The notes under the pieces were generated by a model. It did no database searches. It worked only from the letters and a program-made list of their open reading frames with translations, and was not told where the DNA came from. From the NCBI RefSeq assembly GCF_039962255.1, contig NZ_JAMPKY010000006.1:186001-250000 (forward strand): a stretch of 64,000 bases of DNA. The letters are read 5' to 3'. This DNA comes from Leptolyngbya subtilissima AS-A7. Its GTDB lineage: Bacteria; Cyanobacteriota; Cyanobacteriia; Phormidesmidales; Phormidesmidaceae. Below, in pieces: positions 1,363-64,000 of this stretch (positions within the stretch are counted from its first letter, which is position 1; each line of letters opens with the position of its first letter). The translations under genes and the position numbers were made by a program.

Positions 1363-3387
1363 CTAGTCATCGAGCAGCACAGAGGGATTGCCCGGTAGGG
1401 TAGCGGGCTGTTTTTTGGCCGTTCCGGCGGAGCGGTTGCTGCGGCTGTCGAGCTTACCTTGGGCAATGGGGACAGTGAAGTGAAATTGGCTGCCCTTGTT
1501 TTTACCCTCTGATTCGGCCCAGATTATGCCCCCCAGCCCCTCCACAATCTGACGGCACATGGCTAGCCCTAGCCCGGTACCACCGGTAGTCCGCCGCAGC
1601 GCCCCTTCTTCTTGATAAAAACGATCGAACACCACATTCAGGCGGCTGGGCTCAATGCCGCGCCCAGTGTCGGCGACGGTGACTTGCAGGTGGGTAGGGC
1701 TAGAGCGGGTCACCTGAATAATGATTTTGCCGGTGGTAGGGGTAAATTTTTGGGCATTGTCGAGCAGTTTAGCCAGCACCTCGACCAGCCATTCGCCATC
1801 GGCGCGCACTAGGGGCACCTGCTTAGGAATTTTGACCTTAATGGTGGGGGTTGCGGCGCTGTCTTGGCTACCGTGGATGCTGCTGAGGGCCAAATCGACG
1901 CATTCCTGAATGGAGAGCGACTCTAGGTTCCACTCGACACGACCGCTCTCAAGCCGTGACAGGGTGAGAAAGTCTTGCACCAGCTTGCGCATGCGCTCGG
2001 CATCTTCAAGGGCCGATTGCAGCATAATCTGGCGCAGCTCGTTGGGCATGTCAGGCTCGGTGGCCAGACTTTCGAGACAGACCTGAATCGTCGAGAGCGG
2101 GGTGCGTAGCTCATGACCAGTAATGGCGATCAGATTGGCCCGAGTGCGATCGAGGGCTTCGAGCTGCTGGTTGAGGTCCTGTAGGTTAGCGTAGGCCTCA
2201 GCCTGAATGATGGCGACGCTGAGCTGGGTGGCGATCGCATCTACCAGGGCTGTATCGTCTTCGCTCCACTCGTAGGGCTGGGGTAGGCAGTGGTGCAGTT
2301 CGATCAGGCCCACCAGGCGGTCTTGGTACGTCAGGGGCACAATCAGCCATGATTGAATCTGCCACCGCTCAATCAGGGGCTGAATGGCCTCTAGCTCATA
2401 ACGAAAAGGCGACTCGCGGTCTTGGGTGTTGGCAATGGCGACAATTTCTTTGGTGTCTTGAATGTAGTCAAATAGGGGATTGGTGGCCAGCGGCCAGGTC
2501 TCGCCCAGCAGCGACTCGACCTTGCTGTTGAGGTGCTGGTGCGCAATCACTACCGTGGCGTCGGTGGCGCTACAGGGATAGATTAGGCAGCGACACACGT
2601 GTAGCGCTTGGCCCAACTCCTGGGCCGCTTTGGCAAAAATTTCGTCGGCGTTAAGAGACTGCCGCACCACCGAGGTAATGGAGTTAACCAAGCGCTCCCG
2701 TCGCTCTTGAGCGGTAATAGCCTTGTAGGCTTTGAGCAGCTTGTACTGCCCTGCCTGGAGGTAGGTGACCAGTCGCTGGGTAAAAGGATCAGGCCCACCG
2801 CTGCCGTCGAGGCGTTCAGTAGGCATCAGGGATGGATTGATGTAGCGCTGGCGGGCGATCGCAATTTTGTCAGCCAAGTCAGGGCGGTATCCGGCAATGC
2901 GATCGAGCAGCATGTCTGCTGCCCGCTGACTGACGTAGCGGTCTTGGGTCCAAACTCCCTCAAACCGGCGAGTTTGGTCGAGGTGGGGGCCATCTATGGC
3001 CGGTACCGGCGATCGCTCTCGACAGATCAAGCAGGCACTGTAGTCAGCCCCCACCACAATCAGATGCCACTCCTGGGTAAGGGCATCGTCGGTGTCAAAG
3101 GCGATCGTTTCGTAGTTCTCAGAGCGACTGGCAAAACTAGTACCCAGGGCCGACAATACATAGACCTGATCGGTCAGCTCAGCAATGCGCAGATAGCGGT
3201 TAGCCTCCTGCAAATAAAACCGCTCCTGTTGAAAGCTAGCAATCACTAAAAACTTCGCCGTCCCCGCCAGCACGTGATCTTCCATCGCGTGGGACAACGC
3301 GGTTAAAGAGGTCTTGAAGTAGAGGCTAGGTCTCAGCTGGGGAATTGCGGTCAGCAATTCTTCCACTACAGAGGTGGAATGGCTCAT
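1363..3387 (-). CDS. Sensor histidine kinase: DICT sensory domain, GAF, HisKA, HATPase
   Basis: A 674-residue soluble-looking sensor kinase with no clear membrane helix. Residues about 20-190 resemble the DICT domain (named for diguanylate cyclases and two-component systems), a putative light- or signal-responsive module common in cyanobacteria. A GAF domain follows at about 245-395. The dimerisation/phosphoacceptor motif GHELRTPLS puts the phosphorylated histidine near residue 425. The N box (LLDNAQKF, about 541), DTGRGIEP (about 573) and GGTGLGLAM (about 602) show a complete ATP-binding domain, so the kinase should be active. The GAF domain has no DXCF or Cys-His bilin motif, so bilin binding is not supported. 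No response regulator is adjacent, making this an orphan kinase. The start at 3387 begins just before the DICT domain. Confidence 0.88.
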   Translation of the reverse strand: MSHSTSVVEELLTAIPQLRPSLYFKTSLTALSHAMEDHVLAGTAKFLVIASFQQERFYLQEANRYLRIAELTDQVYVLSALGTSFASRSENYETIAFDTDDALTQEWHLIVVGADYSACLICRERSPVPAIDGPHLDQTRRFEGVWTQDRYVSQRAADMLLDRIAGYRPDLADKIAIARQRYINPSLMPTERLDGSGGPDPFTQRLVTYLQAGQYKLLKAYKAITAQERRERLVNSITSVVRQSLNADEIFAKAAQELGQALHVCRCLIYPCSATDATVVIAHQHLNSKVESLLGETWPLATNPLFDYIQDTKEIVAIANTQDRESPFRYELEAIQPLIERWQIQSWLIVPLTYQDRLVGLIELHHCLPQPYEWSEDDTALVDAIATQLSVAIIQAEAYANLQDLNQQLEALDRTRANLIAITGHELRTPLSTIQVCLESLATEPDMPNELRQIMLQSALEDAERMRKLVQDFLTLSRLESGRVEWNLESLSIQECVDLALSSIHGSQDSAATPTIKVKIPKQVPLVRADGEWLVEVLAKLLDNAQKFTPTTGKIIIQVTRSSPTHLQVTVADTGRGIEPSRLNVVFDRFYQEEGALRRTTGGTGLGLAMCRQIVEGLGGIIWAESEGKNKGSQFHFTVPIAQGKLDSRSNRSAGTAKKQPATLPGNPSVLLDD

Positions 3388-8629: not shown

Positions 8630-8774
8630 GTAACTCTCGCGCAGGCGTGCAGTACTCCCTTCACCATTCCACGAATAGAGAGCGATTTCAAGCCGCCCGG
8701 TGCTGAGGGGCGATCGCCCCCATGGGGTGACTGGGTTTGGTGTCACAATAGCCCTACATTCCTTTTATCTGGTC

Positions 8775-9482
8775 ATGGACTTTACCACCGTTCGCCCTGG
8801 GCAGCTTTCCATCATTGCTAACGATTTCGACGCCCGGCCGATGAGCTTTGTGCAAGATGGCGATCGCCAGGGCTACGAACCGGCTGTGGCGCGGGCGGTG
8901 AGCGAGGCCCTGGGGTTGGTACCGGTGTGGTTTGACTGCCCACCCGAAGAGTTTTACCCCACCCTTAGCACTGGCGATTACGACGTGGTGTGGTTTAGCC
9001 AAGCTATTACCCAAGATCGCCGCGCCTGGGCCGACTTTACCCGCCCCTACGGTCGCTTTGACGAAGCCGTGCTGGTGCGCGAAGATAGCCCTATCCAGAC
9101 GTTGGAAGACCTAGCGGGCAAGCGGCTCGGCTCCCTGGCGGGCAGCAGTCCCCTAATTCTCACTGAGGCTTTGCCTGACCTAGAATGGGTGCCGTTTGAA
9201 GGGGCTGACCACACCCGGCCCGCCCTGCTGACAGCCTTGAGCCAAGGCGCGATCGATGCCCTGGTGGGCGATGCCCTGCTGCTACTTACCGCCGAGGCCG
9301 ACACCACTAGCCTGCGAGTAGCTTTTCAAATTCCCACCCAGCACCCCTTTGGCGTTGGGGTGCTACCAGGCAACCGAGAACTGCTAGAGGCCCTCAATCA
9401 GGCGATCAATCAGCTAATTATGAACGGCACCCTGGCTAAGCTGTGGGCCCAGTGGATTCCCTACAAGCCGTTTCCGTTTTAG
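8775..9482 (+). CDS. Solute-binding protein family 3 (SBP_bac_3) fold, no signal peptide
   Basis: A 235-residue protein with the two-lobe fold of family 3 extracellular solute-binding proteins. Visible are GYEPAVARAVSEALGL (matching the GFDVDLAKAIA element), YDVVWFSQAITQDRRAWADFTRPY (the family signature around the first hinge) and TLEDLAGKRLGSLAGSS. The C-terminal half has GAIDALVGD and FGVGVLPGN. Proteins of this fold bind amino acids or small organic ligands for ABC transporters. Here the chain begins directly with the first beta strand and has no signal peptide or lipobox, so it is probably cytoplasmic or used as a sensor. No permease or ATPase gene is near. Its last 47 bases overlap the end of the convergent GGDEF/EAL gene. 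Confidence 0.8.
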   Translation: MDFTTVRPGQLSIIANDFDARPMSFVQDGDRQGYEPAVARAVSEALGLVPVWFDCPPEEFYPTLSTGDYDVVWFSQAITQDRRAWADFTRPYGRFDEAVLVREDSPIQTLEDLAGKRLGSLAGSSPLILTEALPDLEWVPFEGADHTRPALLTALSQGAIDALVGDALLLLTAEADTTSLRVAFQIPTQHPFGVGVLPGNRELLEALNQAINQLIMNGTLAKLWAQWIPYKPFPF

Positions 9483-12400
9483 CAGGGTCGAGGTTGGGAG
9501 CGGGCAGTTGGGCAATGAATGCCGTTGCATCCTTCACTGAGAGGGGCGAAGAGAAGTAATAGCCCTGCCCCCCCTGACACTGGTGGGCCTGGAGGTAAGC
9601 CACCTGCTCGCCGGTTTCAATGCCCTCGGCCACCACCGTCAAATTGAGGTTGGTGGCCAAGCTGATAATGGCTTTGACAATTTCGTAGTCGTCCGTGCTG
9701 GGGCCAGAGTGGTGCAGGTGGGTAATAAACGACTTGTCAATTTTGAGCACGTCGATGGGAAATCGATGCAGGTAGCTGAGGGATGAGTAGCCGGTACCAA
9801 AGTCATCCATACAGATCTGGATGCGGCGCTGGCGCAGCTGTTTGAGCAGATCAATAGCCATCTGGGCGTTTTGAATCAGCACGCTTTCGGTGATTTCAAC
9901 CTTCAGGTGCTGCCCCTGCAGGTGATTGCGGCTCAGGGCAGCGTCTATTTGCTGAATCAAGTCAGGGCGCACAAATTGCTTACCGGAGAGATTGACGCTG
10001 ACGGTGAGAGGTCGACTGTGGGGCAGCTCTCGATGCCAATAGCTCAGCTGACGGCAGGCCTCGTTTAGGGTCCACAGGTCGAGGGCAGTAATCAGTCCAG
10101 TGTTTTCGGCAACGGGGATAAAGTCGAGGGGAGGCACCAGCCCCCGGCGGGGATGCTGCCACCGCACCAAAGCCTCAAACCCCTGCACCGTGCCGGTGGC
10201 CAAATTGACGATGGGCTGATAATACAGCCGCAGTTCACCCCGCTCTAGGGCGCGGCGCAGGTCGTTCTCAAGCTCCATCTGCTGCATCACCATGGTGTGC
10301 ATAGGAGCGTCAAAAATGGCGTACTCGCGGTTGCTGCCCTTGGCTTTGTACATGGCGATATCGGCATCACGCAGCATTTGGTTGGGGTCGGTGTAGGTGG
10401 TGGCGCTGAGGGCGATGCCAATGCTGGCGTGGACAAAGACCTCATGCCCCTGGAGCAGCACCGGGCTTTCGAGAATGGCGTGAATGCGCTGGGCCATGGT
10501 GACGGCAACAGCGGCATCGCTGATATTAGACAGCAGCACCACAAATTCGTCGCCCCCCAAACGGGCGGCCACATCTGCCGGACGCAGGCAGGTTTGCAAT
10601 CGCTGGGCCACCACCTGAAGCAGCTGATCGCCCATGGCATGACCCAGACTGTCGTTGATCACTTTGAAGCGATCGAGGTCGAGAAACAGCAGGGCAAACT
10701 GACGATTCGCGCAGCTTAAAGCCTGCGGCATCTCAGAAGCGGGCACCGACTCGAAACAAGTATCCGTCCCGGAATCGCAGCAGAGGTCGGGCGCACCATC
10801 AAAGGTAGCGCCCACTGGAGAACAATGGTTGGGGCAGTGGTGGTGCAGGTGCTCAAGCGCCTGAGCCAGCCGTTCTAAGAACAGCGTGCGGTTGGGCAGC
10901 CCGGTGAGGCGATCGTGGGAGGCATCGTAGCGCAGCTGGGCCTCCAGCCGCTTGCGCTCGGTCAGCTCGATCTGGGCCTGGGCATAGAGCTCGGCTTGGT
11001 GAATGGCGATCGCCAAATGGTCGGCTAACCGCTTAATGAGTTTGATTTCGGCCTCGCTCCAACAGCGGGGGCCAGGGCAATGATGAACGCTCAATATACC
11101 TTTGACCTCGCCCCGATAGCGAATTGAAACGGCTAGAATCGCCCCAATATTCAGCTCTTGAGCCAGGGCCAGGTTGGGCAGCAGCATCGGTTCAGCCCTG
11201 ACATCGTCTACGACCACCGGCAGCTCCTCAGCCAACACTCGCTGGGCATGGGGGTTGCCTTCAATGGGAATCACCTGCCCCTGCAAACTATCAAAACCGG
11301 GCGTACTAGCCGTGTTGGTGTGCACCAACACCTGGTCGGTCGCCTGACAGAGAATCACTAGGCCGCGACTGGCTGCGAAGGTGTGGAGCATTTCGGTCGC
11401 CGCCCGCTGGAGCAGCGTCTCCAGCTCCAGACTGTCGCTAATGGCGCTGATGATGTTGTTGAGCAACTTTTCCTGCTGGGCCAGGGCGCTGGTCTGAGCC
11501 AGCAGCTGGCTCTGCTGGAGGGCGATCGCCACTTGGTCAGCCAGCTGAGATAATAGGGCACGCTCCTTGGGCTGCCACTGGCGCGGCCCGCGGCAGTGGT
11601 GAGCGCACAGCAGCCCCCACAGATGGCTGCCACAGTTAATCGGCACAACCAGATTGGCCTGCACCTGAAAGCGCTTCAGCAGCGCGCGGTAGCAGGGGTC
11701 AATGTTAGCCTCAGCCACGTTGTCGATGTGGTGGGTGCGGCCTCGGCGGTAGCGGTGGGCCAAGCCGGGCTTGGTTAAAAAACAAGTGTCTTCTACGGTG
11801 AGGCCGAAGGTTGCATCCCAAGGGGGCAGCACGGATTCAACCGCCATAGTGCCGCTGAGGTCAGCGTTAAAGCGATAGATGAGCACTCGGTCGGTCTGCA
11901 AAAACTGCCGCACCTCGGTGACCGTGGTCTGCAAGATCTGCTTGACCTCTAGAGATTGGTGAATGTGTTGAGTAATGGTGCGAATCAGATGCTCTTCTTC
12001 GGCCTGGCGGCGCAGAGCCTCCTGGGCCTTAACAAGGGGAGTGATATCGGTAGCCACTGACCCCAAAATGGGGGTGCCATCGGCCTCCAGGCTCACGGGA
12101 AACAGTACTGAGCTAAACACCCGCTGCTCCCCCTGAAGGTACAGCGTATCTTCTACGGTCAGGGAGGTTTGGGTGGTGACGATGTGCTGCACCCGCTCCA
12201 TAAAAACGCTCAACACCGAGGGCGGCAGCAGATCGGCAAAGGAACGCCCCACCACATCCTCAGGATGCAGGCCAAACTGGGCAGCGGTGGCCTGATTGAC
12301 TCGCCGATAACGTCCATTGGCGTCAAAGATGCTGACCAGAGCCGGAGAATTGTCGATAAACGCCTGCATCTGCTGGTTAGCGCTGACTAGGGCCTGCTCA

Positions 12401-13251
12401 GTATGCTTGCGATCGCTGATATCGAGCACAACAATATCCCAAGCAATGTCGCCGTTGGCCAAACATTCTGGGCAACCCATGCCCTGAAGCCAGGTCTGCC
12501 GCCCCGAGGGAGTGAGCAGACGCCATTCGCAAAACCAGGGGGTGAGGGTAGCGCCAGAACTCTGGAGCAGCCCCTGCACGGTGCTGCGATCCTCGGGGTG
12601 AATGGACAGCCAAAGCCGCTGGGGCTGGCCGAGCAGTTGCTCGGGCTCTAGCTCCCACATGTCGACACAGCCGGTGCTGACGTAGGTGATATCGTCGGCC
12701 CCAGAGGGATGCTGCACGTAGCGCAGCACGACCCCCGGCAGGTTAGCCAGCACCGGCTGTAGGCGGCTTTTGTGGCCTTGGCGAGGGGCAACCTGGCGCT
12801 GATGGGTTACGTCTGGCCCAACGCTGGTGAACCGCTGCACCAAGCCGGTGGCGCTGGTCAAAACAGTGGTGTTCCAAGCGATCAGGCGGCGATCGCCGCT
12901 GCGGGTGAGAATTTCAGTCTCATGGCGAACAGCCCCTTGGCTCTGGCCCACGGCGGCTCGTAATAGCTCACTCAGCGCCTGGCGATCGCTAGCGGGGATA
13001 AACAGCTCAAGCCAGTTGCCACCCACAACTTCGTGGCGTTGCCAGCCGGTGAGGGTGAGCAAGTAATCGTTACAGAGCAAAATGTGGCCATTGGCATCGA
13101 CCACTAGCCCCGCCATAGCCATCGTTTCGATCACCGCCCAAAAATGCTGCTCCGATGCTTGTAAATCGCCGATTTGGTCATCGCCTGTCCGGGCATCGGG
13201 AGCACCCACTACAGGATCGAAATCAGGCAAAGAAGTCCAATCATCGGTCAT
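9436..13251 (-). CDS. Multi-sensor diguanylate cyclase/phosphodiesterase (PAS-PAS-PAS-GAF-GAF-GGDEF-EAL), probable cyanobacteriochrome
   Basis: A 1271-residue cytoplasmic signalling protein controlling cyclic di-GMP. Order: PAS domains at about 30-150, 165-285 and 290-410; GAF1 about 425-580; GAF2 about 595-760; GGDEF about 775-980; EAL about 990-1250. The cyclase has an intact GGDEF motif (899-903) and an RxxD inhibitory site (RPAD, 890-893). The phosphodiesterase keeps EAL, VNLSGKQF, KVEITES, MDDFGTG, LKIDKSF, VAEGIET and the QG end motif, so both activities are possible. GAF1 carries DTCF (Cys490) and DPCY (Cys520), the two bilin-linking cysteines of DXCF cyanobacteriochromes. A Cys/His-rich insertion (about 802-850) interrupts the GGDEF domain. 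The 3' end overlaps the convergent solute-binding-like gene by 47 bases. Confidence 0.93.
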   Translation of the reverse strand: MTDDWTSLPDFDPVVGAPDARTGDDQIGDLQASEQHFWAVIETMAMAGLVVDANGHILLCNDYLLTLTGWQRHEVVGGNWLELFIPASDRQALSELLRAAVGQSQGAVRHETEILTRSGDRRLIAWNTTVLTSATGLVQRFTSVGPDVTHQRQVAPRQGHKSRLQPVLANLPGVVLRYVQHPSGADDITYVSTGCVDMWELEPEQLLGQPQRLWLSIHPEDRSTVQGLLQSSGATLTPWFCEWRLLTPSGRQTWLQGMGCPECLANGDIAWDIVVLDISDRKHTEQALVSANQQMQAFIDNSPALVSIFDANGRYRRVNQATAAQFGLHPEDVVGRSFADLLPPSVLSVFMERVQHIVTTQTSLTVEDTLYLQGEQRVFSSVLFPVSLEADGTPILGSVATDITPLVKAQEALRRQAEEEHLIRTITQHIHQSLEVKQILQTTVTEVRQFLQTDRVLIYRFNADLSGTMAVESVLPPWDATFGLTVEDTCFLTKPGLAHRYRRGRTHHIDNVAEANIDPCYRALLKRFQVQANLVVPINCGSHLWGLLCAHHCRGPRQWQPKERALLSQLADQVAIALQQSQLLAQTSALAQQEKLLNNIISAISDSLELETLLQRAATEMLHTFAASRGLVILCQATDQVLVHTNTASTPGFDSLQGQVIPIEGNPHAQRVLAEELPVVVDDVRAEPMLLPNLALAQELNIGAILAVSIRYRGEVKGILSVHHCPGPRCWSEAEIKLIKRLADHLAIAIHQAELYAQAQIELTERKRLEAQLRYDASHDRLTGLPNRTLFLERLAQALEHLHHHCPNHCSPVGATFDGAPDLCCDSGTDTCFESVPASEMPQALSCANRQFALLFLDLDRFKVINDSLGHAMGDQLLQVVAQRLQTCLRPADVAARLGGDEFVVLLSNISDAAVAVTMAQRIHAILESPVLLQGHEVFVHASIGIALSATTYTDPNQMLRDADIAMYKAKGSNREYAIFDAPMHTMVMQQMELENDLRRALERGELRLYYQPIVNLATGTVQGFEALVRWQHPRRGLVPPLDFIPVAENTGLITALDLWTLNEACRQLSYWHRELPHSRPLTVSVNLSGKQFVRPDLIQQIDAALSRNHLQGQHLKVEITESVLIQNAQMAIDLLKQLRQRRIQICMDDFGTGYSSLSYLHRFPIDVLKIDKSFITHLHHSGPSTDDYEIVKAIISLATNLNLTVVAEGIETGEQVAYLQAHQCQGGQGYYFSSPLSVKDATAFIAQLPAPNLDPAKTETACRESTGPTA

Positions 13252-13513: not shown

Positions 13514-14233
13514 CTAGAGAAACTGCTGCCAGTTTTCACTGCGAAACAGGGCTCGCTCAGCCTTGCGGCGGCGCTGTAGGCCAGGCATCACATTGCCCCC
13601 GGCATAAATCCACTTGGCGAACTCCTCAGACGCTCCAGCCATGTCTCCGGCGTTGAGCTTCTTTAGTAGGGTAGACGACTGCAAATTGCTGGGGCCGACG
13701 TTGAAGGTAAACGACACCAGCGCCGAGAACTGGTCGCTGGTCAGGGTGCGAGTCACAGCATCGGAGACGGCTTTTTCATACTTTTTGAGGTCGCGCTTGA
13801 GAATCTCTTCGGCCTCGGCCCGAGTGATGGTGAGCCCGCGGTAGACCTGCGGTGCCCCTGCAGAGGAGGTATGGCCATAGCCAATGGTCCAGGGTTCACC
13901 ACCGGTGCCGGGGTCGGGGTAGGCGCTGAGGCTCAGGCCCTCAAACCCCTTAATAATCGCTAGCCCAGCGGCGTTGATGGTGTTGCCTGGGGGCGGGGGT
14001 GGCGGGGGAGGTGGCGCGGGCGGCATGGGCTGAGGCTCAGGTCCTCCAGTGCCGATAGACACCGTCATGGCGCGGGGATAATCATCCCGCTGAAACCATG
14101 TCTTGACGCTGCCAACGTTGACTACCTGCTCCTTGGGATTATTGCTCGACGGATATTTCGTGATGCGAGAGATCCAGTAGCCTCCCTGCATCAGGTAGAT
14201 TGCAATGTCTGTTTCTTTAATCCAGGTTCCCAT
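13514..14233 (-). CDS. GH24 lysozyme (phage-type endolysin fold) with Pro-rich linker
   Basis: A 239-residue protein. Residues 1-60 form a small Trp-rich domain, followed by a proline-rich linker (about 65-83, with nine consecutive Pro) and a C-terminal T4-like lysozyme domain. The catalytic triad of the family is visible as Glu98 (GFEGL), Asp107 (YPDPG) and Thr116 (WTIGYGHT). GH24 enzymes cleave the glycan strands of peptidoglycan. The start at 14233 is preceded by a good ribosome binding site (GGGGAGGT); longer frames up to 14371 lack one. There is no signal peptide and no holin or other phage gene nearby, so export is unexplained. It may be a domesticated prophage gene. Confidence 0.88.
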   Translation of the reverse strand: MGTWIKETDIAIYLMQGGYWISRITKYPSSNNPKEQVVNVGSVKTWFQRDDYPRAMTVSIGTGGPEPQPMPPAPPPPPPPPPGNTINAAGLAIIKGFEGLSLSAYPDPGTGGEPWTIGYGHTSSAGAPQVYRGLTITRAEAEEILKRDLKKYEKAVSDAVTRTLTSDQFSALVSFTFNVGPSNLQSSTLLKKLNAGDMAGASEEFAKWIYAGGNVMPGLQRRRKAERALFRSENWQQFL

Positions 14234-14635
14234 ATGACCTCCCCGGAGCAGTCCGCATACCAGGAATTTACAATACTTTCGGAATAATGGGCCATTGAGT
14301 TTTGGCCAGGTTCTACCATTTTGCCCACCGTGGAGCATAGATTTAACCCCTATAGCCCGGCCAATCGCCATAGCCAGCCGCGCGATCGGCGAGAGCTACG
14401 CCCTAGCAGTTCGGTTTGGCACGGCCAAAGTTCGTCCCTAACCAAGGTTTCACCTGCTACCGCCGCGGGCTGACCAGTAATTTTTTGTCTACTCTAAGCT
14501 GAGGTTGCACTTTGCCCCTGGCAAGGCTAAGTCAACACCGCCCTGACAAACCCAGCAGAAGGTTTTTTCCAGGCAGACGATTCAGTCGTTAAGATATTCA
14601 AAGCTTAGTGTCTTTTCTGGTGGCTTATTATCTCC

Positions 14636-60490: not shown

Positions 60491-63400
60491 CTATAGGGCC
60501 GGACTAACGGATACCGCCAGACTGACAATTTGCCAGGGCTCTACCTCATGCCATCCCTTCGCTTCGTAGGGTTCTTCTAGCAAATTTACTCGCCCCGTTA
60601 CCTCCATTGATATGGAGCCCTGGAGTTTTAGAGTCGTTTCTAGGCCACTGCTCTCATAACCGCGCAGAATGTACTGTTCTGCTGATCCTTCTGCCTGCTT
60701 GAAGGCTGACAGCACAAACCCAGTGTCTCCTAAATTAAGGAAGCTGGCGGAGGATTGAGCGCCTATAGACATGACAGAGGATGGCAACACGCAGGGCCGA
60801 ATAGGCAGGTTGAAGTTGTGGGCGGCCTGTACGGTTTTGGCCTGCTGCCAGCCACGTGCGTGGGGATAAATGGCGTAGCTAAAGGTTTGGCAGCCGCGAT
60901 CGCACCCCGGATCCGGCCAGACAGGAGCCTTAAGCAGCGTCAGCCGCAGTTGGTTGGGTGTAGCATCAAACCCGTGCTTGTAGTCGGTGAGAATGCTGAT
61001 GCCGCGATCGCCATCGCTGAGGTCGGCCCAGCGCAGGGCAGGTACTTCCCATTTGGCCTGGTCTTGGGGAGTGGTGGGAGTGGTTGAGCGGGCGATCGCT
61101 CCGAAGGGAATTTCATAGGTCGCCTCAGCCGCCGACACCGTTAGCGGAAACGCCGCCTTCAGCACCACTTGGGTTTCGTGCCAATCTACCTCGGTGTGAA
61201 CTGCAAGTATGGAAGAATTTGCCTCCAAACGATAGTCTTGGGCGATGGTGGACTGGCCAAAGTGATGGACTACTCGGAGGGTCTGCCGCGCTAGACCATA
61301 CTCAATCCAGCTAACACTCTCAAGTACAAAGGCATCTAGGGGATGGTCTTGGTAATCAGGGGCAATATTCCACGCGTCCCAATATTGGCCCTCGTCTTTG
61401 AAAGCCTGGAGCTGGTTTCCACAGCCCTGAAAGGTTTCGGTGCCGGTAGCTTTGTGGATCAGGCTGGCGATGCCGCCAGTGGCCGGGTCGATGGTGGCTC
61501 TCAGATAAGCATTCTCTAAAACCCACTCGGCGGGGGTCGGACTGGGGAGGGCCGCCTCGGCAGGAATCAGCCAGATCAGGCGATAGCCCACCGAAGGAAT
61601 AGCGGGAACGTAGACCAGCAGCGACGGAGAGTCAGTCTGTTCAAGCTGGGTGGGTAGCGTTTGGCCCTCGGCATCCTGCGCTTGCCAGGAGGTTTGAGGC
61701 AGGGAAGACAAAGAAACGTTCACTACTTCACTGCGCTCCCAGTTCAGCGGGTTGAACAGCGCCACGGGCACGGCGTCAGGCTGTGGAGGCGCAGGTAGAG
61801 GACAGCGCACGGCGAGAGCCTGAAGAGAGGTTTGCAAAAGGCGATCGCCCATCTCCAACGCCGCCTGCCATTCTGCATTCGCTTGCTCAAACACTTCGGG
61901 GATCGACGACCCCGGCAAAATATCGTGGAACTGGTTAAACAGCACTAGCTTCCAGGCGGTTTCTAGCTCGGTCTGGGGATAGGGCTGAAGCCCGTAGATT
62001 GCGGCGATGGAAGCAAACAGTTCGGCTTGGAACAGAATGTCTTCGCAGCGGCGGTTGTACTGTTTTTGGTCGCCGTGGGTGGTGTAGCAGCCCCGGTGGA
62101 GTTCGAGGTAGAGTTCGTCGTTCCAGGTGGGGAGTGGGGGAGGAGGCGAGGGAACGGGCGGATGGGTGGATGGGTGGATGGGTGGATGGGTGAGTTGGTC
62201 AAACAAGGGGGCAGCGTGGCCGAAGGTGAGGGTGGGGAAGAAGGGGGAACTGGCCCAGCGCTGGGCTTTGTGCAGCATGTCGCGGGTGGGGCCGCCGCCG
62301 TGGTCGCCGACGCCGGGGAGCCAGAGGGCGTCGACAAACCCTGTGTTGGCTTCCCACTGGCAGGCGTATTGGGCCATGTCAACCGGAGCGATGTCGGTGC
62401 CGATGGGGGGCAGGGTAACGCCCGTAATCTCGGTGCCGTCTAGCCCCTGCCAGCTAAACAGGTCGTGGGGAAAGGGGTTGGTGTCGTTCCAGCGGAGTTT
62501 TTGGGTGGCGAAGTAGCGAATGCCGCCCTGGGTAAGCAGCTGAGGCAGTTGCCAGGAGAAGCCAAAGGTGTCGGGCAGCCAGGCGACCGCGCTCACTCCG
62601 CCAAACTTCTCAGCACAGTATCGCTGGCCATAGAGAATCTGTCGGGCGATCGCCTCTCCCCCCGGCAAGTTCAGGTCAGGCTCAACCCACAGCCCCGCAT
62701 CAATCGCCCATCGTCCGGCTTTAACTTCTTGCTGAATGGTGGCAAATAGCTCGGGGCGGTGCTGCTCTAGCCAGGCAAACAGCGCTGGGGAGGAATGGCT
62801 AAAAGTGAGTTCGGGAAAGTCTTGCTGTAGGGCTAACACCGAGCGAAACGTATTCTCGGCCGCTTCCCAAGTTTCGGGGACGGGCCAGAGCCAGGCTAGA
62901 TCTAAATGGGCGTGGCCTAGACAGTGGAGGGTGCGCTGCTTGAGCCAGGGCGAAAACTGCTTCAAAGTATCCCGTACGCGCAGAAGTGAGATGTGGAAGC
63001 GATCGCGATCGCCCACTCCATCCCAATCAATTTCTCCGAGAGCCTGGGTGAGAATGTCGAGCTTTTCCCCATCAAACTGAGCTAGATAGGTGGCTAACAC
63101 CGCCAATTCGTCAGCCACAAAACTGGGCTCGGGGCAGTCGCCCGCCAAAGCCTCAAACACCAGTTCGGCCTGCACCAGCGCCCCCTCATCGTGGCCCGGA
63201 CTTAGCAGCTTCAGCGAAACATCCACCGATTCTCCCGGCACAACCCTGTCCGTCAGCACAATCCGCGTCCAGCAGTCGAAGATATCTCCCGTCTGCACCG
63301 GCTCGCCATTGACAAAGATGTCCGCTTGGTCGGCCCACCAGCGCAGCGCCAGCCGTGCCGTTAGCCCATGAAGGGGATAGCCATTGAGCTCGGTGGGCCA

Positions 63401-63643
63401 AGTAAAGCGCTGGTGCAGCCCCAGGGAGACTTTGCCCTTAGGCCAAGCGATGTGATGGCGATCGTTCAGCGTTGCTAGCGGCCAGGTTTTCCAGGCATTG
63501 CCAAAGGAAACATTCAGATCATCCACAGCCTCAGGACAGCGGTGCCAGGTACTCCGCACATCGAGTTGGCTCAGGTGACGGAGGCGATCGAGGATGGCTA
63601 AAATCTGCGGCGGGAGTACAGGGAGAACGGTGGCAGGGGGCAT
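60491..63643 (-). CDS. Glycoside hydrolase family 38 alpha-mannosidase
   Basis: A 1050-residue enzyme. The N-terminal beta-domain is followed by the catalytic domain beginning at GHAHLDLAWLWPVPET; the nucleophile Asp is in WLPDTFGFS, and the metal-binding and WLPGVGDHGGG segments are present. The mid and C-terminal mannosidase domains follow (NPLNWERSE, and LRVVHHFGQSTIAQDY). Residues about 482-504 contain a Pro/His-rich insert translated from the octamer repeat at 62161-62192, just before WNDELYLELHRG. It is cytoplasmic by lack of signal peptide and would trim alpha-mannosides. The ATG at 63643 is used because longer frames overlap the divergent gene. Confidence 0.92.
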   Translation of the reverse strand: MPPATVLPVLPPQILAILDRLRHLSQLDVRSTWHRCPEAVDDLNVSFGNAWKTWPLATLNDRHHIAWPKGKVSLGLHQRFTWPTELNGYPLHGLTARLALRWWADQADIFVNGEPVQTGDIFDCWTRIVLTDRVVPGESVDVSLKLLSPGHDEGALVQAELVFEALAGDCPEPSFVADELAVLATYLAQFDGEKLDILTQALGEIDWDGVGDRDRFHISLLRVRDTLKQFSPWLKQRTLHCLGHAHLDLAWLWPVPETWEAAENTFRSVLALQQDFPELTFSHSSPALFAWLEQHRPELFATIQQEVKAGRWAIDAGLWVEPDLNLPGGEAIARQILYGQRYCAEKFGGVSAVAWLPDTFGFSWQLPQLLTQGGIRYFATQKLRWNDTNPFPHDLFSWQGLDGTEITGVTLPPIGTDIAPVDMAQYACQWEANTGFVDALWLPGVGDHGGGPTRDMLHKAQRWASSPFFPTLTFGHAAPLFDQLTHPPIHPSTHPPVPSPPPPLPTWNDELYLELHRGCYTTHGDQKQYNRRCEDILFQAELFASIAAIYGLQPYPQTELETAWKLVLFNQFHDILPGSSIPEVFEQANAEWQAALEMGDRLLQTSLQALAVRCPLPAPPQPDAVPVALFNPLNWERSEVVNVSLSSLPQTSWQAQDAEGQTLPTQLEQTDSPSLLVYVPAIPSVGYRLIWLIPAEAALPSPTPAEWVLENAYLRATIDPATGGIASLIHKATGTETFQGCGNQLQAFKDEGQYWDAWNIAPDYQDHPLDAFVLESVSWIEYGLARQTLRVVHHFGQSTIAQDYRLEANSSILAVHTEVDWHETQVVLKAAFPLTVSAAEATYEIPFGAIARSTTPTTPQDQAKWEVPALRWADLSDGDRGISILTDYKHGFDATPNQLRLTLLKAPVWPDPGCDRGCQTFSYAIYPHARGWQQAKTVQAAHNFNLPIRPCVLPSSVMSIGAQSSASFLNLGDTGFVLSAFKQAEGSAEQYILRGYESSGLETTLKLQGSISMEVTGRVNLLEEPYEAKGWHEVEPWQIVSLAVSVSPAL
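62161..62192 (-). repeat. Four perfect copies of an 8-bp repeat inside the alpha-mannosidase gene
   Basis: GATGGGTG (plus strand) occurs four times in a row, in a wider G-rich tract (about 62128-62192). The unit is eight bases long, so each copy is read in a different frame; gain or loss of one or two copies would shift the reading frame. It matches the dispersed intergenic repeat family. Confidence 0.85.
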
Positions 63644-63688
63644 GGCTCCGGTATGATCAAAGGCAGTCTCCCCAGTGTAGGCAGAGTT

Positions 63689-64000
63689 ATGGCGACTTCG
63701 TCGCGCTCGTTTCAAAGCCAAACCGTGGCCCGCTTGGTGGCGGGATATCAGCAGATGGCCCACAGCACCGGGCAGTGGCTGCGGCAGGGGCGCACCGCAG
63801 CGGTTTGGGGTCTGCAAGTAGCCGTTTACCCCTTCTACGCAGCGGTGCAGGGGCTAAGAATGGGCGCTCGGCAGTTGCAAGCCACCCGTCCCTGGCGGCC
63901 GGTTTGGGCCAAACTCACGGGAGCACTCCCTGCAGAACTGGTAGCAGCAGACACACCGATTCGCGCCTTGCTGTCGGTCATTCAACCACCGGTAGTCCAC
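63689..64000 (+). CDS. Hypothetical protein, 3' part beyond the window
   Basis: The frame is open from the ATG at 63689 to the right edge (104 codons seen). The sequence is Gln/Ala/Arg-rich with amphipathic helices (ATSSRSFQSQTVARLVAGY, then WGLQVAVYPFYAAVQGL). No family is recognised in this part. It diverges from the alpha-mannosidase with only 45 bases between start codons, so the two share a promoter region. Confidence 0.7.
   Translation, partial: MATSSRSFQSQTVARLVAGYQQMAHSTGQWLRQGRTAAVWGLQVAVYPFYAAVQGLRMGARQLQATRPWRPVWAKLTGALPAELVAADTPIRALLSVIQPPVVH

Follow-up and report, generated by a model that had tools for sequence, protein, structure and literature searches.

A predicted DXCF-type cyanobacteriochrome domain joined to GGDEF and EAL domains in Leptolyngbya subtilissima AS-A7

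The 1271-aa protein encoded at 9436..13251 on the minus strand of the window (the whole analysed stretch of 64,000 nucleotides from Leptolyngbya subtilissima AS-A7) carries a GAF domain, named GAF1 here, that is likely a DXCF-type (dual-cysteine) cyanobacteriochrome whose light state would shift the balance between c-di-GMP synthesis and breakdown through the GGDEF and EAL domains of the same chain. This assignment is based on sequence, conservation, relatedness, bilin pathway genes and intact catalytic motifs. Most likely, Cys520 would hold phycocyanobilin, or its isomer phycoviolobilin, permanently, while Cys490 would attach to the bilin at C10 in one of the photostates. GAF1 would then switch between a violet- or blue-absorbing state and a longer-wavelength state (teal, green or orange); the switch may be passed through GAF2 to GGDEF and EAL, so that the light state of GAF1 would presumably govern the balance of making versus breaking c-di-GMP. 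In PMC11284453, DXCF domains are defined by a canonical and a second cysteine, with isomerisation of phycocyanobilin to phycoviolobilin and ligation at C10, and are described as spread across lineages and believed to be of early origin. Their photoproducts range from teal to orange (PMC6628166).

Domain organisation of the sensor protein

The families found above Pfam cut-offs in this protein (identified from the ORF list and Pfam) were PAS, two GAF stretches, GGDEF and EAL. A PHY domain, which most phytochromes need (PMC11284453), was absent from the Pfam matches of the protein at E 0.01. The PAS region covers approximately residues 31-408 (12028..13161, minus strand) and can be read as three PAS domains from the Pfam stretches 36-144, 189-268 and 300-404. 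GAF1, delineated by motifs, Pfam, PDB matches and trees, occupies residues 430-580 in frame (11512..11964, minus strand). The sequence-only reading had pointed to the two cysteines of DTCF and DPCY, 30 residues apart, and both were recovered exactly in the ORF. DTCF corresponds to residues 488-491 (11779..11790, minus strand) and includes the second cysteine, Cys490, the predicted C10 adduct site; DPCY corresponds to residues 518-521 (11689..11700, minus strand) and includes the canonical Cys520, the predicted permanent bilin link. All other landmarks quoted for this domain were also present in frame (RVLIYRFN starting at 455, AHRYRRGRTHHIDNV at 498 and ANLVVPI at 532). DTCF was found a second time, within an insertion that makes part of the GGDEF domain variable.

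GAF2 spans approximately residues 600-754 (10990..11454, minus strand; Pfam stretch 608-751) and displayed no cysteine at either bilin position in its alignment row, L001_611. The GGDEF domain covers residues 843-975 (10327..10725, minus strand; best Pfam stretch and motif count), with GGDEF at 899 and an RPAD inhibitory site at 890, and is followed by the EAL domain at residues 996-1236 (9544..10266, minus strand; Pfam and motif count), with EALVR at 1026 and DDFGTGYS at 1149. Ahead of the FALLFLDLDRFK strand of the GGDEF domain lies a His/Cys-rich stretch (window 10699-10851, residues about 801-851). A reading of this stretch as a metal site was rejected; it is probably a loose loop, because the orthologs differ here both in length and in content.

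Relatives of GAF1

Searching the PDB with phmmer (E 0.001) gave 89 distinct matching sequences, of which the best 60 were listed. The nine with the highest scores were all cyanobacteriochromes or proteins engineered or otherwise derived from these: 6oap (144 bits), the GAF of a dual sensor histidine kinase which we take to be PPHK, a cyanobacteriochrome GAF; miRFP670nano (6mgh, 119 bits), presumably originating from NpR3784, and its two variants (115 and 98 bits); NpR6012g4 6bhn (112 bits); RcaE 8k9o (106 bits) and 7ckv (97 bits); AnPixJg2_BV4 5zoh (98 bits); and slr1393g3 5dfx (98 bits). The tenth match was a cyanobacterial phytochrome, SyB-Cph1 8w26 (96.8 bits in two pieces), which ranked above 3w2z (presumably AnPixJg2; 96.3 bits) and TePixJ 3vv4 (92.5 bits). 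Bacteriophytochromes reached 37.6 bits at most among the matches listed. The cyanobacteriochrome origin of miRFP670nano is given in PMC6336887.

The AlphaFold model of GAF1, built on an 11-row alignment, displayed a pLDDT of 79.2 and a pTM of 0.80. In it, Cys490 falls within a short helix at fragment residues 65-69 and Cys520 within the helix at 95-103; its least certain part was the loop just before DTCF (fragment residues 55-60 below a pLDDT of 50, mean of 67 for block 61-70). The best 30 Foldseek rows were cyanobacteriochromes or derivatives, with TePixJ 4fof at rank 23, and SyB-Cph1 followed at rank 31. VIA-align Z values extended from 23.0 to 20.1 among the 50 matches listed (slr1393g3 23.0, TePixJ 4glq 21.8, best bacteriophytochrome 6t3l 21.0). 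These values did not separate cyanobacteriochromes from phytochromes, and the fold alone therefore does not decide between them.

Two trees were examined. The first comprised 68 rows, including 13 of the 22 ortholog rows and 14 rows kept from 26 own-genome places; it excluded the other ortholog rows, the GAF2 rows of orthologs, matches covering less than about 110 query residues, the weak rows L001_611, L021, L025, L050_832, L064_1530 and L005_336, and three rows belonging to L082 and L088. GAF1 and its orthologs formed one branch (98/92 with L046 and L047) among dual-cysteine cyanobacterial GAFs, in a tree whose deep forks were weak and whose bootstrap had not settled. One divergent row from the window's own genome, OWN_L006_323, also fell into this 14-row branch, where its support was weak (89/19). 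The second tree, of 56 rows, was rooted on four GAF2 rows; 17 rows were removed (nine divergent own-genome rows including OWN_L006_323, L045 and seven others), and the four GAF2 rows and one phytochrome were added. Here GAF2 split off with 100/100, GAF1 orthologs held together with 96/92, and the lone, gapped phytochrome row (SyB-Cph1) fell inside the set, near RcaE. Alignment, proposed along with the original assignment as its check, thus did not place GAF1 outside the cyanobacteriochromes, the border with the phytochromes being left unsettled by the tree. The score of SyB-Cph1 among the lower cyanobacteriochromes, the Z values and the position of its gapped row would all argue against a clean split between both groups.

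TePixJ grouped with GAF1 in neither tree; it paired with the own-genome paralog L006_495 (87/98 and 100/98), a close relative of TePixJ (163.7 bits). Both trees indicate that TePixJ is not a close relative of GAF1. Its GAF (3vv4, 4glq) resembles GAF1 in displaying the DXCF second cysteine (DPCF there, DTCF here) and the canonical cysteine at aligned positions, and in its fold (4glq: rmsd 2.1, 149 aligned). It differs by an identity of only 33-36% in structural alignments, by its separate branch, by a cysteine spacing of 28 instead of 30, by His instead of Tyr after the canonical cysteine, and by its deposition as a methyl-accepting chemotaxis protein. Five further dual-cysteine GAFs (L002, L004, L005, L006 and L012) were present among the 14 own-genome tree rows, that of L006 being L006_495.

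The cysteine pair among orthologs

The PAS3-GAF1-GAF2 stretch was used as query against 57 genomes, the window's own included. Ortholog-level matches (46-97% identity) were encountered in 19 of the 25 other genomes of the genus, the copy of G023 ending at a contig edge, and one more (L047 of G026) outside the genus in the same family. No such match was obtained in the other six genomes of the genus (G003, G005, G006, G018, G021 and G024); four of these were drafts with a completeness of 84-87%, and the other two were small (3.9 and 3.2 Mb). Named relatives of GAF1 (77-91%) were records of Nodosilinea, Phormidium tenue and Leptolyngbya, which makes Nodosilinea the probable genus. PAS1 was missing in orthologs L059 and L061 and PAS2 in L060; the rest was in one frame and GAF1 was retained. 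The ortholog alignment contained 22 rows (the window, L028-L047 and L058), while L057, L059, L060, L061 and L062 were left out as they lie on contigs of the same lengths as L029-L032 and L035.

Cys490 and Cys520 were both kept in 21 of the 22 rows of this alignment, even where GAF1 was only 50% identical to that of the window, and on this account the pair is judged to lie beyond chance. The motif pairs of these 21 orthologs were DTCF/CY (16), DTCF/CH (two), DTCL/CY, DPCF/CH and DPCF/CY (one each). Invariant positions amounted to 45 out of 151 across the same rows, both cysteines included; Asp488, Tyr501, Arg502 and His551 were jointly conserved with them. The exception, L045 (G014), displayed neither bilin cysteine. 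Compared with its sister L041, it displayed an identity of 50% in GAF1 as against 69-96% in the other domains, and its GGDEF and EAL motifs were intact. This joint loss together with faster divergence of GAF1 is the pattern to be expected of cysteines on which the domain's function depends, and constitutes the best evidence for such a role, drawn from one event in one genome. L045 is perhaps a natural blind version of the sensor and offers a ready-made natural control.

In a search of 291 genomes, the best GAF of all 20 loci ranked after the genus orthologs (L079-L098, chosen by similarity to the query, L088 being the known ortholog L047) displayed DXCF and the canonical cysteine. The 68-row set comprised 47 rows with both cysteines, 15 with the canonical one only, one with the second only and five with neither; the association of the two (Fisher p = 0.007) is illustrative only, the rows being related and chosen by query similarity.

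The sequence-only reading had also described a Tyr replacing the usual His after the second of the two cysteines. The Tyr was indeed present, but it is not unusual: 22 of the 47 dual-cysteine rows displayed Tyr at this position and 25 His, which makes it ordinary, and miRFP670nano is likewise Cys-Tyr. As a special mark of colour or of biliverdin this residue was dropped, being common there; the four positions that differ between 3w2z and 5zoh (AnPixJg2_BV4) do not include it either. The spacing of 28 attributed to TePixJ held for 35 of the 47 dual-cysteine rows, TePixJ among them; two rows displayed 29 and ten displayed 30. All ten were GAF1 orthologs, that is, 10 of the 12 dual-cysteine ortholog rows of the tree set. 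Orthologs L046 and L047 displayed 28, and L032, from outside the tree set, had one residue fewer in this interval than the window. By these comparisons the two-residue insertion, located after DTCF, is the sole distinctive feature of GAF1; most Nodosilinea-type orthologs share it, but none of the other dual-cysteine rows of the tree set does. It could move Cys490. That these orthologs form a dual-cysteine sub-lineage of their own, in which the insertion alters how Cys490 meets the bilin and yields a colour pair or adduct logic unlike described DXCF sensors (e.g. an adduct that forms in the photoproduct and not in the dark state), appears improbable.

Alternatively, the insertion might keep Cys490 away from C10, so that GAF1 would bind its bilin via Cys520 only and act as a single-cysteine sensor (e.g. 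red/green-like) with a relic DXCF. The prevalence of spacing 30 over 28 among the orthologs speaks for this, as does the Tyr found instead of Cys at the DXCF position of 6oap and miRFP670nano, the closest solved sequences. It is nevertheless unlikely: Cys490 and Asp488 were invariant in all 21 rows besides L045 although residues between the cysteines vary, L045 lost both cysteines together, and the insertion follows DTCF, with two dual-cysteine relatives at the intermediate spacing of 29. Very improbable is a former cyanobacteriochrome that has given up its bilin and now serves solely for dimerisation or the binding of a ligand. The protein does persist without the cysteines in L045, and 4 of the 14 own-genome GAF rows were without both; yet the two cysteines and the four residues conserved with them were jointly kept in the other 21 ortholog rows, and it was in the one row without cysteines that GAF1 diverged faster. 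A dual-cysteine, bilin-binding GAF1 thus remains the preferred reading.

Bilin supply, c-di-GMP output and gene neighbourhood

A heme oxygenase was detected in the genome by Pfam (NCBIfam gave no family for that protein), and the only Fe_bilin_red place found was PcyA, phycocyanobilin:ferredoxin oxidoreductase (363.7 bits, cut-off 206). Phycocyanobilin should therefore be available, that is, the host should make it. Motif, ortholog conservation, PDB relatives, tree position and bilin supply together support the initial suggestion of a DXCF cyanobacteriochrome.

The motifs regarded as catalytic in GGDEF/EAL families are GGDEF, ExLxR, Asn, ExTE, DDFGTGxS, KID, AEGxE, QGY and RxxD. All were intact in 22 of 22 ortholog rows except RxxD, which was displayed by 19. 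The proposed union of a sensor GAF with domains for both c-di-GMP synthesis and breakdown in one protein was accordingly borne out, at the level of catalytic motifs. One-sided GGDEF-EAL proteins are common, and the light sensor may work while only one enzyme domain is used, the GGDEF domain being for example a GTP-sensing part of what is in effect a phosphodiesterase. When the whole protein was compared with NCBIfam, the best match was the Tlr1612 phosphodiesterase family NF053781, which points in this direction: it resembles the GGDEF-EAL half, although at 666 bits the protein fell below the cut-off of 1600 and the best stretch covered residues 842-1246 only. The use of one enzyme domain is considered possible but somewhat doubtful, given the GGDEF motif intact in every ortholog row, RxxD in most of them, and the precedent of SesC with both activities.

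SesA, SesB and the bifunctional SesC are described in PMC5871770, according to which blue light induces the cyclase and green light the phosphodiesterase of SesC from Thermosynechococcus vulcanus. SesC, compared here by its description, is a cyanobacteriochrome with cyclase and phosphodiesterase in one protein, and the window protein would resemble it through its cyanobacteriochrome-type GAF and intact GGDEF and EAL motifs. They differ in that colour and light response are described for SesC, whereas those of the window protein are expectations from its putative DXCF type. The latter was not found described among the open-licence papers searched, those on Nodosilinea with cyanobacteriochromes included. 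Two-cysteine light sensors fused to c-di-GMP enzymes are a well-known type, of which this protein is a good further example; it leaves the picture of how light-to-c-di-GMP receptors work unchanged and adds a conserved, testable candidate in Nodosilinea-type cyanobacteria.

Four ORFs beside the sensor gene were kept in six out of six named relatives. A family 3 solute-binding protein gene (8700..9482, plus strand) lies tail to tail with the sensor gene, the ends of the two overlapping by 47 bases, and adjoined it in all six. On the other side, a phage-type lysozyme domain protein (13514..14371, minus strand) adjoins the sensor gene and was also found in all six. The window further encodes a protein with DICT, CHASE6_C, GAF and histidine kinase domains (1363..3387, minus strand), possibly a second sensor, and a glycosyl hydrolase family 38 (alpha-mannosidase type) protein of 1108 aa (60491..63817, minus strand).
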